Shown: positions 41,344 to 47,306 of the stretch, piece by piece
How positions within the stretch are numbered: the stretch's first letter is position 1
Layout: each line of letters begins with the position of its first letter
Assembly (NCBI RefSeq): GCF_001434115.1
Contig: NZ_AZDW01000021.1
Location: 1-64,000 of the forward strand
Length of the DNA: 64,000 nucleotides
From: Levilactobacillus zymae DSM 19395
GTDB lineage: Bacteria; Bacillota; Bacilli; Lactobacillales; Lactobacillaceae
Reading direction: 5' to 3'
Notes under the pieces: model-generated
Told to the model about the DNA's origin: nothing
Seen by the model: the letters and a program-made list of their open reading frames with translations, nothing else
Database searches by the model: none
Translations under genes and position numbers: made by a program

Positions 41344-42432
41344 TCATGGTTGTAAAGGTCCGGTCACCGGGGCAATCCAGGTGGCTAGGTCGGTCAAGGG
41401 GACCGCGTGCATGGCGGGTTGGCCGATGGCCGTCAAGTAGACCCAGGTCAGCGCCTGGCCGTGAATCTTCTTATCGTGCTGCATGGCCGCCAGCAGCGCC
41501 GTCACCGTCAGGTCCGCCGGTAACGCCACCGGTAACCCCACGGCGGTCAGCCGGTCCCGTAATTGGTCGGCCAAGGCGGCGGGCATCATTCCCTGAGCGG
41601 CAAAGAGGCGGGCGACCTGGACCAGGCCAATCGCCACGGCCTCCCCGTGCATGTAACGCCCGTGACCCCACAGCTCCACGGCGTGACCCAGGGTGTGGCC
41701 AAAATTCAAGAGTTGACGTTGGCCGCCCTCCTTTTCGTCGGCCATTACCACCCGGGCCTTAAAGGCGATACTCTGGTGGATCAACGGGGCGGCTTGCGCG
41801 AGGATCGCTGCCGGCTGGGTCACCTGTTGGACCAACGCCCAGAAGTCACCGCCCACCAGTGCCGCGCATTTCACGATCTCGCCGTAGCCCTCCACCAGCA
41901 TCCGTGGGGGCAACGTGGTCAGCGTGTGCGGGTCGATCAGGACCACGTCGGGCTGGTAAAAACTCCCGACTAAATTTTTGCCCGTGGGTAGGTCGATGGC
42001 GGTCTTGCCGCCGACCGAACTGTCGACCTGTGCCAGTAACGACGTCGGTACCTGCGCAAAGGCGATGCCCCGCAGGTAAATGGCGGCCACAAACCCCGCC
42101 AAGTCCCCCACGACACCCCCGCCTAACGCGAGGACCCCGTCACTGCGGGTCAGGTGCGCGGCACTCAACGCGTCGATCAACCGCATCACTTGCGGCCAAC
42201 TCTTACTGCTTTCCCCGGCCGGGACCGTCAACACAGTAACGCGAAAGCCCGCCGCAATCAACCGGTCGCGGACCTGCTGCGCGTAGAGGGGCCCTACGTT
42301 CGTATCGGTGATCACGGCCACCTGGCATGGCGTCCAAACCTGAGCCAGGGCCGTCCCCACCCGTGCTAACAGCCCCGCTTCGATCGTGACCGCGTAACTT
42401 TTAGCCGCGGTCGTGACTTGAATCGTTGTCAT
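41344..42432 (-). CDS. aroB: 3-Dehydroquinate synthase
   Basis: A 362-residue NAD- and metal-dependent cyclase, second step of the shikimate pathway. Motifs are ALGGGVVGDLAGFVAA, PTSLLAQVDSSVGGKTAIDLPTGKN, EGYGEIVKCAAL and the metal His in NFGHTLGHAVE. The ATG follows GGAGGT. Last gene of the operon, 9 nt after the DAHP synthase gene. Confidence 0.95.
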   Translation of the reverse strand: MTTIQVTTAAKSYAVTIEAGLLARVGTALAQVWTPCQVAVITDTNVGPLYAQQVRDRLIAAGFRVTVLTVPAGESSKSWPQVMRLIDALSAAHLTRSDGVLALGGGVVGDLAGFVAAIYLRGIAFAQVPTSLLAQVDSSVGGKTAIDLPTGKNLVGSFYQPDVVLIDPHTLTTLPPRMLVEGYGEIVKCAALVGGDFWALVQQVTQPAAILAQAAPLIHQSIAFKARVVMADEKEGGQRQLLNFGHTLGHAVELWGHGRYMHGEAVAIGLVQVARLFAAQGMMPAALADQLRDRLTAVGLPVALPADLTVTALLAAMQHDKKIHGQALTWVYLTAIGQPAMHAVPLTDLATWIAPVTGPLQP

Positions 42433-42441
42433 GTCTACCTC

Positions 42442-43437
42442 CTACGCCCAACTCTGGACTAAATCGTGTAATTGAAATGCCTGCTTGGCCATCTTGAGGT
42501 AGGTCTTGGGCTTTAACGCCTGCGGCCCGTCGGATAACGCGTGGGTCGGGTCGTCGTGGATTTCGACGATCATCCCACTGGCGCCCGCCGCCACGCCGGC
42601 CATGGCCATCGGCGTGACCAGTTCCCAGGTACCGACCGCATGGCTAGGGTCGACGATGACCGGGTAGTGGGTCAGCTCCTGTAAGACCGGCACGGCCCCC
42701 AGGTCAAAGGTGTTGCGGGTGTACTTGTTGTCAAACGTCCGAATGCCACGTTCCAGCAACATGATCTGGTGATTGCCTCCGGCGGCGATGTATTCGGCGG
42801 CGTTGAGCACGTCGTCAATCGTGGCCGACATTCCCCGTTTCAAGGCCACCGGAATCTGGGTGCGCCCCACGGCCTTTAACAGCGAGAAGTTTTGCATGTT
42901 CCGCGCCCCAATCTGAAAAATATCGGTGTATTGCGCGACCATCGCCACGTGTTCGTCGTCCATGACCTCGGTGATCATGTCTAGGTCGTTCTGATCGGCC
43001 GCGGCGCGTAAGTCCCGCAGGCCCTCTTCACCTAACCCCTGGAAGGAGTACGGCGAGGTCCGGGGCTTGAAGGCGCCGCCGCGGACCACGGTCGCCCCGC
43101 CCTGTTTAGCGACCTCGGCCATCCGTTCGACGTGCCCGGCACTCTCCACGGAGCACGGTCCGGCCATCATCACGAAATGGTTTCCGCCAATCACACTGTG
43201 CGGTGTGCGGATGATGGTGTCTTCGGGATGGAACAAGCGACTGCTTTGAACGGCCGCGGGCACGTCGGTCAACACATCGGTACTGGCCGCTCGGACGTCG
43301 GTCGGCAGTTGTGCGGGCGTCAAGCCCTGAATGGCGATGCGGTTAGCGTGGGTGAAAATCTCGTGGCTGGTCCCGAATTCTGCGATTAATTTAGCTTGCA
43401 TGGCGGCCGCAGTCGCTGGTTTTAAAATAATAATCAT
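42442..43437 (-). CDS. aroF: 3-Deoxy-7-phosphoheptulonate (DAHP) synthase, type I-beta
   Basis: A 331-residue enzyme joining PEP and erythrose 4-phosphate, the first committed step. The N-terminal 70 residues form a small ferredoxin-like regulatory domain. The barrel has MMAGPCSVES, VVRGGAFKPRTSPYSFQG, QIGARNMQNF, VALKRGMSA and VDPSHAVG. No chorismate mutase domain is fused. Start ATG with GGAGG. The symbol follows common usage for this family; aroG or aroA(f) would be equally acceptable. Confidence 0.93.
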   Translation of the reverse strand: MIIILKPATAAAMQAKLIAEFGTSHEIFTHANRIAIQGLTPAQLPTDVRAASTDVLTDVPAAVQSSRLFHPEDTIIRTPHSVIGGNHFVMMAGPCSVESAGHVERMAEVAKQGGATVVRGGAFKPRTSPYSFQGLGEEGLRDLRAAADQNDLDMITEVMDDEHVAMVAQYTDIFQIGARNMQNFSLLKAVGRTQIPVALKRGMSATIDDVLNAAEYIAAGGNHQIMLLERGIRTFDNKYTRNTFDLGAVPVLQELTHYPVIVDPSHAVGTWELVTPMAMAGVAAGASGMIVEIHDDPTHALSDGPQALKPKTYLKMAKQAFQLHDLVQSWA

Positions 43438-43455
43438 TTAAAAGTCCTCCTTAAT

Positions 43456-44358
43456 TTACATGGCGTGGCGTTGGGTCGTCGGGACATCCTCAGTGGTCAA
43501 ACTAGCTAACAGGTCAGCTTCCACGGCGGGCACCGGCATCGGTTTGCCCGTCCAGAATTGAAAAGCTAACGCGCCCTGCCAGATCAACATGCCCAGACCG
43601 TTATGGGTCTCACACCCCTTTTGCCGGGCTCGCGCCAGAAATTCGGTCTCCAGGGGTTGGTAGATCACATCGTAGACCACTTGACCGGGATGGAGTACCG
43701 CTAACACGCTGGCCGGCACCGGAATCCCCGCCGTAGTCATCCCCACGCTGGTGGCGTTAATCACTAAATCGGCCTGGGCCACTAGGTCGCACATAGTTTG
43801 GACGGCCTCGTAGGGGTGCAGGCGCAACGGCGTGGTCGCATTTTGGCTCACCCCTGCCACCCAAGTCGCCACGGCCGGGTAACTGGCCGTCTGGCGTTTG
43901 AACACGTCGACTTGGGCTAACCGGTAATCCAGTGCTGCGGCGATGATGGCCTTCCCCGCCCCACCGGCGCCTAAGATCACCACCCGTTTTCCCTGCAGGT
44001 TCAGGCCCCGGGACTGGAGATTCTGAAATAACCCGGCGCCGTCGGTACTGTCACCAATCAGGCGGCCGTGGTCGTTCTTAATCGTGTTCACGGCGTTGAT
44101 ACGTTGCGCTCTGGGCGTCAACTCATCGAGAAGCGGGATCACGGTCTGCTTGAACGGCATCGAGAGGTTGACTCCGGCGATGCCCATGCTGCGAATACCG
44201 GCCACCGCGGCGGGAAGATTCCCCGGGGCGACGTCGAACGCGAGGTACCGGGCGTTGATCCCCCAGTGCCGAAAACTAAGATTGTGCATGCGCGGCGAGC
44301 GGCTATGGTGGGCCGGGTGCGCGATAAAGCCAAATAATTGAGTTTTGCCGTTAATCAT
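43456..44358 (-). CDS. aroE: Shikimate dehydrogenase
   Basis: A 300-residue NADP enzyme. The substrate pocket has HHSRSPRMHN and NLSMPFKQTVIP (catalytic Lys), the cofactor loop is ILGAGGAGKAII, and GLGMLIWQGALAF lies near the end. Start at 44358 (MINGKTQ) is 9 nt from GGAGG; the longer frame starting at 44394 overlaps this ribosome site and is unlikely. Second in the operon, 25 nt after tkt. Confidence 0.93.
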   Translation of the reverse strand: MINGKTQLFGFIAHPAHHSRSPRMHNLSFRHWGINARYLAFDVAPGNLPAAVAGIRSMGIAGVNLSMPFKQTVIPLLDELTPRAQRINAVNTIKNDHGRLIGDSTDGAGLFQNLQSRGLNLQGKRVVILGAGGAGKAIIAAALDYRLAQVDVFKRQTASYPAVATWVAGVSQNATTPLRLHPYEAVQTMCDLVAQADLVINATSVGMTTAGIPVPASVLAVLHPGQVVYDVIYQPLETEFLARARQKGCETHNGLGMLIWQGALAFQFWTGKPMPVPAVEADLLASLTTEDVPTTQRHAM

Positions 44359-44383
44359 AAAAATCATCCTCCTATAAAATCGG

Positions 44384-46396
44384 TTAAATCGCATTCAGTT
44401 GTAAGGGTGTGACCTGCCCCGTGCGGAGGTAAGCCGTGACCAGGTGGTCCACCGTAAAGCCGTTAGCCGCTAGGACGGCGGCCGCGGCCCCGCTAGCGCC
44501 AAAGTGATCGATCCCCACAACGGCACCGTCTAACCCGACGTAACGTTCCCAGCCTTGCGTGGCGCCCATTTCAATCGCCACGCGCCGGCGAACTTGTGGG
44601 GGTAAGACCTGTGCCTGATAGGCCGCCGACTGACGGTGAAACTGCTCTAGTGAGGGTAAGGACACGACACTAACATCCTGACCCAGGGCGGCTAACCGGC
44701 GCTGAGCCTGCAGGGCCAACGCCACCTCCGACCCGCTAGCCATTAGGATGCCGCTGGGTTGCCGGCCCCGTTGAGGGGAAAGGACGTATCCTCCACGAGC
44801 AACGCCGGTCAGCGCCAGTTGCTGAGTGTGCGGCAAAACGGCTAATTCCTGTCGGGTCAGGACCAAAACCGTGGGGTGATCGGTCGCATTGATGGCTTGC
44901 CACCACGCCGCAACGGTCTCGTTGGGGTCGGCCGGTCGAATCACGGTCACGTTGGGAATCGCCCGTAAACTCATCAGCTGTTCGATGGGTTGGTGGGTCG
45001 GCCCGTCCTCCCCCACCGCCAACGAATCATGGGTGAATATGTAAGTCACGGGGAGCCGTTGGAGCGCCGCCAATCGAATAGCGCCCCGTAGATAGTCGGA
45101 GAAGACCAGGAAGGTACTGCCGAAGACCCGCAGACCGCCGTGAAGGGCCAACCCATTGAGAATCGTCCCTTCCCCAAACTCCCGAACGCCAAAGGCTAAG
45201 TTTCGTTGTCCCGGTGTCCGTGACGTCATCAGGTCGTCCGTCTCCAACGTGGTGCGATTAGAACTGGCCAAATCCGCAGAGCCTCCCACCAATTCGGGAA
45301 GTTGTACGGCCAACCGTTGAATCACGGCGTGGCTGGTCTGGCGCGAGGCCGCGGCCCCCTGGGCGTATCGGGGCAGGGTCGCCCCTAAAGTCGTCGGTAA
45401 TTCCCCGGCCAAGACCCGAGAAAACTGCGCCCGTTGTTGCAGTGCTAAACTCGCAAGGCGGGCCTGCCAACGCCGATAAGCGCGGTGCCCCCGCAGCGTA
45501 ATGGCCTGATGGGCCCGCTTGACCACTGCCGGTAAGACGGTAAAGGCCGGGACGGTCCAATTCAAAGTCGTACAAAGCTGGCGACGACCCGCCGCACCTA
45601 AGGGTTTCCCATGCACCTGATTGGTGCCCGCCCCTGGCGCGCCAAATCCAATCACGGTCTTCACGTCGATCAATGATGGCCGGTCGCTGTGCTGGGCCCG
45701 CGTCAAAGCGGTATCAATGGCGTCGAGGTCCGTCCCGTCGGCAACGACCTGAACGTCCCAACCGTAGCTTCGAAAACGCTGCGGCACGTTGGTCGTCGTT
45801 GACCGGCTGGTGGGGCCATCCAACGAAACGGCATTGTCGTCGTACAAAACGATCAACTTATTCAAGCGCTGGTGACCCGCAAAACTAGCCGCTTCGTGGG
45901 AGACCCCCTCCATCAAATCGCCATCCCCCACCAGACAGTAGGTAAAGTGGTCACTGACGATCGACCCGTACTGGGCGGCGAGATGCCGCTCGGCTAAGGC
46001 CATCCCCGTCGCCATTCCTAGCCCCTGGCCCAACGGCCCGGTCGTGGCGTCCACTCCGGGAACCTTGCCGTATTCGGGATGACCCGGCGTTTTGCTCCCG
46101 AACTGCCGAAATTGTTTGAGATCGGCCAAGCTGAGATCAAACCCACTCAGGTGCAACAGGCTGTACAGGATAGCGGACCCATGCCCGGCGGACAAAACGA
46201 ACCGGTCGCGGTTGACCCACTGCGGGTGGCGCGGGTTCAGCCGTAAATGTCGACTCCACAACACCCATAAAAGCGGGGCCGTGCCTAACGGTAATCCGGG
46301 GTGGCCGGACTGAGCCCGTTCAATCATGTCGATGCTCAACAGGCGTAAATTATTAATTGCTAGTTGGTCGGTCTCATCAAATTCTCTTTTTTGCAT
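44384..46396 (-). CDS. tkt: Transketolase
   Basis: A 670-residue thiamine-diphosphate enzyme. The cofactor site has GDGDLMEGVSHEA with the Asn replaced by the DDNAVSLDG segment downstream, and the C-terminal half has TYIFTHDSLAVGEDGPTHQPIEQL. As first gene of the aro operon its likely job is to supply erythrose 4-phosphate for DAHP synthase. The start at 46396 (MQKREFDE) is 9 nt from AAGGAG; an in-frame GTG at 46528 would run through the attenuator terminator and is rejected. Preceded by the aromatic leader attenuator. Confidence 0.94.
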   Translation of the reverse strand: MQKREFDETDQLAINNLRLLSIDMIERAQSGHPGLPLGTAPLLWVLWSRHLRLNPRHPQWVNRDRFVLSAGHGSAILYSLLHLSGFDLSLADLKQFRQFGSKTPGHPEYGKVPGVDATTGPLGQGLGMATGMALAERHLAAQYGSIVSDHFTYCLVGDGDLMEGVSHEAASFAGHQRLNKLIVLYDDNAVSLDGPTSRSTTTNVPQRFRSYGWDVQVVADGTDLDAIDTALTRAQHSDRPSLIDVKTVIGFGAPGAGTNQVHGKPLGAAGRRQLCTTLNWTVPAFTVLPAVVKRAHQAITLRGHRAYRRWQARLASLALQQRAQFSRVLAGELPTTLGATLPRYAQGAAASRQTSHAVIQRLAVQLPELVGGSADLASSNRTTLETDDLMTSRTPGQRNLAFGVREFGEGTILNGLALHGGLRVFGSTFLVFSDYLRGAIRLAALQRLPVTYIFTHDSLAVGEDGPTHQPIEQLMSLRAIPNVTVIRPADPNETVAAWWQAINATDHPTVLVLTRQELAVLPHTQQLALTGVARGGYVLSPQRGRQPSGILMASGSEVALALQAQRRLAALGQDVSVVSLPSLEQFHRQSAAYQAQVLPPQVRRRVAIEMGATQGWERYVGLDGAVVGIDHFGASGAAAAVLAANGFTVDHLVTAYLRTGQVTPLQLNAI

Positions 46397-46419: not shown

Positions 46420-46452
46420 AAAAAAGCGCCCACAGACTAAACTGTGGACGCT
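46420..46452 (-). terminator. Attenuator terminator in front of tkt
   Basis: An 11-bp stem with one G-T pair (arms 46442-46452 and 46425-46435) is followed by TTTTTT (46420-46425). It lies between the aromatic leader peptide and the tkt ribosome site, so it must be bypassed for operon expression. Confidence 0.9.
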
Positions 46453-46500
46453 TCAGTGGTGGACCGGTACCGCAAATAAACGGCTGGTCTCCGCCACCAG

Positions 46501-46545
46501 AAAAGTCACACAGTGATTGGTAAAACACCGATGTGACTCTTCCGT
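46501..46545 (-). promoter_or_regulatory. Upstream hairpin in the tkt leader RNA
   Basis: On the minus strand AGTCACA pairs with TGTGACT, followed by TTTT. It may be a first weak terminator or part of the switching structure. Confidence 0.45.
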
Positions 46546-46565
46546 AAATGATTAATTATACGAAA

Positions 46566-46636
46566 ATTACTGGTCACCTTCGATGCGGGCGTAGTGCCCG
46601 CACCGAGGTGCCGACACTACTGCAGAAACCAGTAAT
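46566..46636 (-). promoter_or_regulatory. Stem pairing aromatic codons with downstream leader RNA
   Basis: A 9-bp perfect inverted repeat (46566-46574 with 46628-46636). The upstream arm is made of the Tyr-Tyr-Trp codons of the leader peptide. Within it, TGCGGGC and GCCCGCA form a 7-bp hairpin, and GTAGTG at the leader stop can pair with CACTAC in that hairpin's loop, giving an alternative fold. A ribosome waiting for aromatic tRNA would prevent the outer stem. Confidence 0.7.
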
Positions 46637-46676
46637 AATAAAATCGATTCTGTTTTGGTCGGGGCCAGGTTCGCAT
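46617..46676 (-). CDS. Aromatic leader peptide of the tkt-aro operon
   Basis: A 19-residue frame, MRTWPRPKQNRFYYYWFLQ, contains F-Y-Y-Y-W-F in a row plus an earlier Trp. The ribosome site is AAGGAGAT (46684-46691) at suitable distance. It begins about 40 nt after the predicted transcription start. All three aromatic amino acids are represented, matching the common-trunk shikimate genes that follow. This is the hallmark of ribosome-mediated transcription attenuation as in trpL and pheL of enterobacteria. Confidence 0.88.
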   Translation of the reverse strand: MRTWPRPKQNRFYYYWFLQ

Positions 46677-46720
46677 AATTAAAATCTCCTTAGAAAGTTA
46701 ATGATTACTTAATGACATTG

Positions 46721-46749
46721 AGTTTACGAGTCTTTCATAGATTTGTCAA
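46721..46749 (-). promoter_or_regulatory. Promoter of the tkt-aro operon
   Basis: Minus strand -35 TTGACA (46744-46749), 17-nt spacer, -10 TAAACT (46721-46726). Transcription would start near 46714, giving a leader of about 320 nt. Confidence 0.8.
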
Positions 46750-46782
46750 ATGGTTTTTTTGAATTTTTCTATGAATCGATCT

Positions 46783-46814
46783 AAAAAACGTGGCCAATCC
46801 CTGGATTAGCCACG
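46783..46814 (-). terminator. Terminator after the 113-residue unknown gene
   Basis: CGTGGC-T-AATCC pairs with GGATT-G-GCCACG (46803-46814 with 46789-46800), followed by T6 on the minus strand. Confidence 0.9.
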
Positions 46815-46822
46815 CGACCAAT

Positions 46823-47233: not shown

Positions 47234-47306
47234 TGGCCCCACCCGGACTCGAACCGGGATCATTCGCTTAGGAGGCGAGTGCCCTATCCAGTTGTGCTAT
47301 AGGGCC
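47234..47306 (-). tRNA. tRNA-Arg (anticodon CCT)
   Basis: A 73-nt cloverleaf. The acceptor GGCCCTA pairs with TGGGGCC with discriminator A. The D arm, anticodon loop CTCCTAA (CCT, reading AGG) and T arm with GGTTCGAGTCC are all in place. The CCA end is not encoded. Confidence 0.95.

Follow-up and report, generated by a model that had tools for sequence, protein, structure and literature searches.

Described attenuators and the window leader

In textbook accounts, the aromatic amino acid genes of Firmicutes are controlled by T-boxes and TRAP, and leaders that rely on ribosome stalling belong mainly to enterobacteria. The enterobacterial trp and pheA leaders respond to one amino acid each, have four segments and control trp or pheA. 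In the his attenuator of Salmonella and E. coli, as outlined in the parts of two sources used here (PMC4046918, PMC10989985), the E:F hairpin terminates transcription, the combination of B:C and D:E permits read-through, and an untranslated leader terminates by default, since A pairs with B. Leader-peptide attenuators are also described, in the excerpts available, for the Bacillus hisS paralogues (PMC2965389), for his genes of the B. cereus group, Peptostreptococcaceae and Erysipelotrichales (PMC9413887) and for Listeria Rli60 ilv (PMC5864092), and the his genes of Lactobacillales are assigned to T-boxes (PMC9413887).

We analysed a 64,000-nucleotide stretch of the Levilactobacillus zymae DSM 19395 genome (hereafter the window), in which a short open reading frame (ORF) precedes a tkt-aroE-DAHP synthase-aroB operon. 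On a computational basis, we are highly confident that this element is a ribosome-mediated transcription attenuator with an A-D-E-F-G-H relay. It shares with the his attenuator, as described in part in PMC4046918 and PMC10989985, a leader ORF with regulatory codons, a relay of segments and, as modelled, termination as the untranslated default, but its regulatory codons are a mixture of F, Y and W where the his leader has His, a further hairpin arm lies at the stop codon, and the host belongs to another phylum. No match to the Rfam his leaders was found in the window. With the enterobacterial trp and pheA leaders it has in common aromatic regulatory codons and, in the proposed mechanism, alternative hairpins set by the position of the ribosome, whereas it differs in involving three amino acids and in controlling the common pathway. 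The Firmicutes His and branched-chain attenuators, as far as the excerpts describe them, are likewise ribosome-mediated and in places replace T-boxes, but they carry other codons and precede other operons. Ribosome-mediated attenuation, including that of His and branched-chain genes in Firmicutes, is already known. Of earlier work, that of Panina et al. 2003 (FEMS Microbiol Lett) is the most likely to have dealt with the aromatic genes of low-GC Gram-positives. Among the literature matches listed, with most subscription journals outside their coverage, none described an aromatic leader in Lactobacillaceae, and in the main text of Ravcheev 2013 (PMC3616900) the terms leader peptide, attenuat-, T-box, aromatic and trp are all absent.

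Architecture of the leader and its operon

The promoter, ribosome site, 19-codon frame and terminator put forward in an initial annotation of the window are all present on the minus strand (Table 1), and the frame (46676-46617) does contain the six consecutive aromatic codons F-Y-Y-Y-W-F (residues F12-Y13-Y14-Y15-W16-F17). With its Shine-Dalgarno (SD) site, start and stop, this ORF is rich in codons for the end products of the operon. The earlier Trp pointed out in the same annotation is also there (W4), but is not part of the conserved leader, since it recurs at the same place only in sister locus L033. The proposed codon pairing was found as a perfect 9-bp match between 46636-46628 (AUUACUGGU) and 46574-46566 (ACCAGUAAU), at a separation of 53 nt instead of the 55 nt first given. 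The terminator (46453-46420) has a 12-bp stem and an energy of -20.3 kcal/mol. The four genes lie downstream of the leader in the same direction, with Pfam matches that agree with the identities initially assigned to all of them. Transketolase supplies erythrose 4-phosphate.

Table 1 Positions of the leader parts and operon genes in the window, in order of transcription
Feature	Positions	Strand	Evidence or remarks
Sigma-70-type promoter TTGACA-17-TAAACT (predicted)	46721..46749	(-)	Consensus-based; 10/12 consensus matches
SD AAGGAG of leader ORF	46686..46691	(-)	Sequence
Leader ORF, MRTWPRPKQNRFYYYWFLQ then stop	46617..46676	(-)	ATG 46676, TAG 46617, 19 codons
Segment A, codons F-Y-Y-Y-W-F	46626..46643	(-)	46628-46636 pairs with D
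Segment B, overlaps stop codon; 5' arm of hairpin B:C	46607..46618	(-)	Covariation
Segment C, partner B or 5' part of D	46593..46604	(-)	Covariation
Segment D (relay segment), partner A, C or E	46566..46590	(-)	Covariation, swap test
13 nt complementary to leader start region 46670-46682	46552..46564	(-)	Perfect 13-bp match
Segment E, partner D or F	46526..46537	(-)	Covariation, folding, swap test
Segment F, partner E or terminator arm G (antiterminator)	46505..46515	(-)	Folding, swap test
Spacer hairpin between F and terminator	46458..46498	(-)	Predicted fold
Segment G, 5' arm of intrinsic terminator	46442..46453	(-)	Terminator search, swap test
Segment H, terminator 3' arm with U-run	46420..46435	(-)	Terminator search, swap test
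tkt SD	46411-46406	(-)	Sequence
tkt, transketolase	44384..46396	(-)	ATG 46396; PF00456 7.6e-121
aroE, shikimate dehydrogenase	43456..44394	(-)	PF08501 3.2e-27; exact start uncertain, tested stretch from 44361
DAHP synthase (aroF type)	42442..43437	(-)	PF00793 5e-74
aroB, 3-dehydroquinate synthase	41344..42432	(-)	PF01761 2.2e-46

Runs of six aromatic codons are rare by chance: the 64-kb window has one, and 200 first-order Markov simulations averaged 0.01. The full pattern of SD, ORF and six aromatic codons occurred in none of 200 simulations and was counted twice in the window, which we read as one leader with two overlapping starts. The 301-nt leader folds 8.8 standard deviations below 100 dinucleotide shuffles. 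At gathering score, Rfam gave no named family for the leader, its sole match in the window being a tRNA elsewhere; a tRNA gene lies at 47234-47306 on the strand of the leader. Directly upstream of the leader promoter, a terminator-like hairpin was seen at 46788-46815. The 13-bp match to the leader start region is partly conserved (32/78 loci beat shuffles by 4 kcal/mol), and pairing of this kind may perhaps shut off the ribosome site of the leader or re-initiation.

Conservation of the leader across the family

A DAHP synthase of this type was matched in 159/397 genomes of the family, the window genome included. From these, 100 loci were sampled, 99 of them from 98 of the matching family genomes and one from the same-genus genome G001, by taking mainly the top of the ranking plus a sample of the remainder. 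To be scored as a leader, a frame ahead of the first operon gene had to encode four or more aromatic residues within six codons; the stretch scanned extended at most 750 nt from whichever of tkt, aroE and DAHP synthase came first. The comparison among relatives that the initial annotation had suggested came out strongly in favour of the leader, which was found at 77 of the 100 loci. Sites like the SD of the window leader precede most of the listed relatives' leaders; six of the 77 have a weak SD and were therefore included manually. The 77 loci carry 71 distinct peptides, which by eye have the aromatic C-terminal part in common and vary in their N-terminal parts. Within the last ten residues, Trp occurs in 74/77, Tyr in 77/77, Phe in 76/77 and all three in 73/77. 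The leaders lacking Trp (L046, L056 and L088) read SYYYYQPR or FSYYYQS(R/Y), and their codon-RNA pairing changes along with them. An intrinsic terminator lies between leader and first gene at 77/78 loci, the window included, the exception being L101, and the spacing from F to G differs among loci.

No leader was selected at the other 23 loci (L061, L063, L065, L068, L069, L071, L072, L090, L091, L100, L103, L107, L112, L116, L120, L124, L125 and L127-L132). Among them, L065 and L090 are cut by contig ends and L069 has a weak leader; apart from these three, 20/100 loci keep the DAHP synthase with no recognised leader in the range scanned, which at L061 and L100 was the stretch before aroE and not that before tkt. 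The leader is therefore not universal, and lack of the frame beside a retained operon, named in the initial annotation as evidence against attenuation, applies in part, at this minority of loci. In some leaderless loci the operon may start further up, because the scanned stretch looks coding by eye. In genome G303, two copies of the DAHP synthase lie some 11 kb from each other; L053 has a leader, and at L091 none was recognised.

Outside the family, the operon also occurs in three Sporolactobacillus species, preceded by leaders of the NRYYYFGWFR or NRYYYFDWLSFS type. In the genus of the window, only 2/35 genomes, the window genome included, have the DAHP synthase; that of G001 is 97% identical to the window's, and the nearest ones outside the genus are from Lactiplantibacillus (86-89%). 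Because of this narrow spread and the Lactiplantibacillus relationship, the window operon (41344-46396) may have been acquired by transfer together with its leader.

Covariation and complementarity of the RNA relay

Covariation was assessed in an alignment (A2) of 40 sequences, namely the window and 39 of the 77 leader loci, drawn from 50 representatives under 0.93 similarity. The divergent loci L067, L070, L101 and L110 were left out, as was a Leuconostoc-like group (L113, L114, L115, L118, L119, L123 and L126), the latter because an earlier alignment (A1) misplaced the 5' part of D there; L059, misaligned in E, was retained. Among the helices, A:D has the largest share of paired cells (98.0%, double changes at 8/9 pairs), followed by B:C (94.4%, 3/5 pairs), C:D (85.0%, 12/13 pairs), E:F (84.2%, 7/11 pairs) and D:E (79.9%, 7/10 pairs). 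Three alternative structures were compared with slides of 1-3 columns and with shuffles. For A:D+B:C+E:F, 91.3% of cells were paired against at most 45.1% when slid, with 110 double-change cells against 29.8 shuffled; the corresponding values were 84.8% against at most 44.4% and 50 against 20.7 for B:C+D:E, and 84.7% against at most 45.5% and 140 against 47.3 for C:D+E:F. The covariation score of each structure was reached by 0/500 shuffles, a control that, like the permutations below, is inflated by sequence relatedness. Other measures were equalled more often: further pair types by 72/500 shuffles for A:D+B:C+E:F, and double-change pairs by 11/500 and further pair types by 12/500 for B:C+D:E.

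The pairing of Tyr and Trp codons with downstream RNA, as first proposed, thus covaries among relatives, and two A:D pairs (columns 21/100 and 24/97) fall on synonymous third positions of Tyr codons. Because A:D covaries at such positions, both peptide and pairing are kept, and we take this covariation to be a direct sign of double constraint.

A swap test that needs no alignment set the duplex energies within each locus (cognate) against those obtained with segments swapped in from other loci, for the 74 distinct loci among the 77. Both this test and the folding below cover the divergent and Leuconostoc-like loci and leave out L101, where no terminator was found. The cognate pairing was stronger for A:D (-15.2 vs -10.7 kcal/mol; better than the median swap in 73/74), D:E (-13.8 vs -10.1; 71/74), E:F (-13.2 vs -9.5; 60/74), F:G (-15.1 vs -9.6; 74/74) and G:H (-21.8 vs -9.6; 74/74), with 0/5000 permutations as good as the cognate set in each case. 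For A:E, A:F, D:F, D:G, E:G and A:G, a cognate advantage was absent in the same loci. The segments therefore form a chain of complementary neighbours, A:D, D:E, E:F, F:G and, with the terminator arm H, G:H. Such neighbour-only complementarity is what a his-type six-segment relay requires, and it is present here. The initial annotation had already recognised the A-D pairing and the terminator; it missed B, C, E and F, the segments on which the switch depends.

Predicted folding of the leader RNA

The transcript was folded as if stopped before H, with D either available or removed. With D free, F:G prevailed over E:F in 68/77 loci (0.78 vs 0.03 in the window), and with D blocked in only 28/77 (0.01 vs 0.98 in the window); F:G was higher with D than without it in 56 loci and lower in 2. 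For the window, F is thus predicted to hold the terminator arm when D is free and not when D is blocked. In both folding and swap tests, the antiterminator F:G uses the 5' arm of the terminator and so excludes G:H.

In a cruder approach, the 5' end was cut at the ribosome footprint and the remainder folded at equilibrium, with B:C unlocked. F:G then prevailed over E:F in 23/77 loci with no ribosome, in 38 with the ribosome at the first aromatic codon, in 38 at the third and in 34 at the fifth, which across loci is a trend only. At the stop codon, F:G prevailed in 42/77, where the model wants E:F, so that this state of the model was not reproduced by footprint folding. In the window the switch was absent from this folding: E:F won the ensemble in every state (F:G 0.04 when stalled and 0.09 at the stop codon), because C:D takes D, and the best single structure in the stop state combined D:E with F:G. 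Since C:D traps D at equilibrium, the proposed switch in the window depends on prior formation of B:C, which would have to hold C at the stall; such an order is plausible from the order of transcription.

Proposed mechanism

The ORF, the other parts, their conservation, the covariation of the helices and the complementarity of the relay were computed, and from them we infer that the leader is translated and that stalling on it leads to read-through. The attenuator would sense how much charged Phe-, Tyr- and Trp-tRNA is available and control tkt-aroE-DAHP synthase-aroB in response. A shortage of any one of the three, which we infer to suffice alone, would stall the ribosome on FYYYWF, where it would cover A; hairpin B:C could then form ahead of it and D would be free to pair with E. 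Once D:E had formed, the released F would pair with G and block the G:H terminator, and the operon would be transcribed. When supply is good, the ribosome would reach the stop codon and cover B, leaving C to trap D, and if the ribosome had gone or never arrived, A would trap D instead; in either case E:F and G:H would form and transcription would stop. As modelled, a ribosome stalled on the aromatic leader very probably switches the operon on. The ribosome-stalling interpretation of the initial annotation is in this way supported by the leaders at 77/100 loci and by the A:D covariation, and sharpened by the relay. The part assigned to B and C in this scheme is slightly more likely than not.

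A possible, though less probable, arrangement within the same attenuator class is a plain his-type A-D-E-F-G-H core, in which B:C would be a pause hairpin for RNA polymerase and C:D a by-product. Its six segments would correspond in order, one to one, to segments A-F of the his attenuator as partly described in PMC4046918, and the aminotransferase leaders of Agrilactobacillus (see below) by eye lack the B/C part and have the stop codon inside D. Against it, C:D covaries at 12/13 pairs, which is beyond the need of a pause hairpin alone.

Related leaders before other aromatic genes

A covariance model of segments A-F (R1) matched 105/397 family genomes, in 20/40 genera, and 2/398 class-wide genomes, these being the window genome and G535 from another family. 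Within the window genome, it found the window copy and no other leader up to E=10. Sixteen matches away from the loci already sampled were fetched and read. Nine of them (L245-L250, L252, L253 and L258) precede an aminotransferase, for which the closest NCBIfam family in the two loci tested was PRK07309, just under cut-off, the rest being assigned by likeness. At several of these loci a D-hydroxyacid dehydrogenase comes next (tested at L245, under cut-off), and the Agrilactobacillus leaders among them have a compact form with the stop codon inside the relay segment. Two further matches (L254 and L257) precede a membrane protein, which gave no NCBIfam family where tested (L254 and L245); by eye, similar ORFs stand third at L245 and second at L252 and L253. 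From its place after aromatic leaders or the aminotransferase, this protein is a candidate aromatic transporter. One match precedes a TrpX-like substrate-binding protein (NF041285, under cut-off), and another precedes a run of genes for chorismate synthase and EPSP synthase (over cut-off), for prephenate dehydrogenase and for chorismate mutase (both under cut-off) and, as judged by eye, for a kinase. Two (L255 and L260) precede tkt-led aro operons. Given the leaders before aminotransferase and transporter-like genes, the whole looks like a regulon. The remaining match, L251 (G197:C7:17702-17795), is a shortened remnant in which the leader NRFYYYWFIQ-stop is intact and the B-C-D part is missing; an unrelated gene comes next, and no aro gene was seen in the stretch read.

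Enterococcus sRNA 2410 and the trpB motif

In the part of the source used here, E. faecium sRNA_2410 is described as two transcripts seen by RNA-seq and Northern blot (PMC5593968). The Rfam family RF02863, 'Enterococcus sRNA 2410', matches 83/148 genomes of the order. Its best 20 loci (L338-L357), which are the top of the ranking and not a random draw, have a YYFSYFR-like leader in 18 cases (not L339 and L351), against 0 and 0 in controls, and by eye the downstream ORFs are AroE-like in ten and resemble substrate-binding lipoproteins in ten. RF02863 thus resembles the window element in having a Tyr/Phe leader within the RNA and an AroE-like or substrate-binding gene next to it, as judged by eye; it differs in its YYFSYFR leader type without Trp and in being described, in the same excerpt, as an sRNA (PMC5593968). 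No RF02863 match was found in the window at the gathering score of 61, nor among the matches to the leader stretch up to E=5.

That the window leader encodes a functional small peptide, or that its terminated RNA is a trans-acting sRNA, is improbable. An RNA of this kind has indeed been catalogued as sRNA_2410 in E. faecium, according to the excerpt of PMC5593968, but the RNA helices covary with the codons, and by eye only the aromatic C-terminal part of the peptide is shared while the N-terminal parts vary.

The second family, RF04312 or 'trpB motif', has over 900 members and was published as a strong riboswitch candidate, although its discoverers, in the part of the source available, could not rule out a classic attenuator (PMC11109978). 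It matches 136/246 genomes of the order (47 over cut-off) and 8/121 of the class (5 over). We read 56 loci (L262-L271 and L292-L337), of which ten came from the class search, 26 were new and top-ranked in the order search, and 20 were weaker and hand-picked, many of these from the window's family. An SD-preceded leader ORF ending at most 35 nt before the motif was found at 51/56, with Trp in the last ten residues in 47 and an aromatic cluster in 4; at five shifted places the counts were 0, 3, 4, 3 and 1, and on the reverse strand 0. Typical leader ends are WQSWRR and RWQSR. Among the misses, NNGWQSR (L326) and YYFSYFR (L268) can be read by eye but lack a recognised SD or start, and at L269 and L334 no leader was visible. 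The fifth, L267, is a weak match with a HHHHRFKGL-stop leader, whose sequence suggests a histidine version. The 32 nt before RF04312 match the P1 left arm in a locus-specific manner (cognate -15.9, swapped -10.7; 54/56). Like the window element, RF04312 as partly described in PMC11109978 has a hairpin with a 3' shoulder as antiterminator, followed by a terminator, and has a leader ORF upstream; unlike it, RF04312 has mostly Trp leaders and is compact, its leader lying immediately in front of the hairpin.

That the window element is a riboswitch sensing a ligand, or a leader bound by a protein, with the short ORF incidental, is more improbable still. RF04312 does match segments E-H, though weakly and below its gathering score (26.5 bits against 59), but the in-frame aromatic codons and the stop are conserved and change synonymously with their pairing partner, and RF04312 itself has a Trp or aromatic leader upstream in 51/56 loci.

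We consider it more likely than not that the window attenuator, the trpB motif and Enterococcus sRNA 2410 belong, as separate branches, to a single large family that has gone unrecognised: leader-peptide attenuators built on a common D-E-F-G-H relay. In Lactobacillales this family would serve Trp, Tyr and Phe as T-boxes and TRAP do elsewhere in Firmicutes. If so, the trpB motif would not be a riboswitch, and the leader family would directly explain both a riboswitch candidate and a small RNA that have so far been orphans. In many lactic acid bacteria, a three-amino-acid leader lies ahead of the genes of entry into the shikimate pathway, transketolase included.

T-boxes in the window genome and at related loci

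Control by a T-box or TRAP, the usual Firmicutes route, is scarcely credible for the window leader: the window genome has T-box matches elsewhere, but the window has none at gathering score, a T-box being rejected for the leader since RF00230 is absent from the matches to its stretch up to E=5, and no (G/U)AG repeats, of which TRAP-regulated leaders have eleven or so, were noticed in it by eye. The T-box matches of the window genome number 34 at E up to 0.001, with 5 over cut-off and none on this contig. At gathering score, no T-box was found in 31 Rfam-scanned loci (21 of the 23 unselected ones and ten with leaders). A loose text pattern of the T-box core (at most 2 mismatches) matched at L037 (-487) and L069 (-446), and at the latter Rfam finds no T-box despite this match. 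Downstream of one aminotransferase leader locus, a T-box match of 76 bits, below the cut-off of 93, was seen at L247:3761-3973, and both kinds of control therefore lie close together there.
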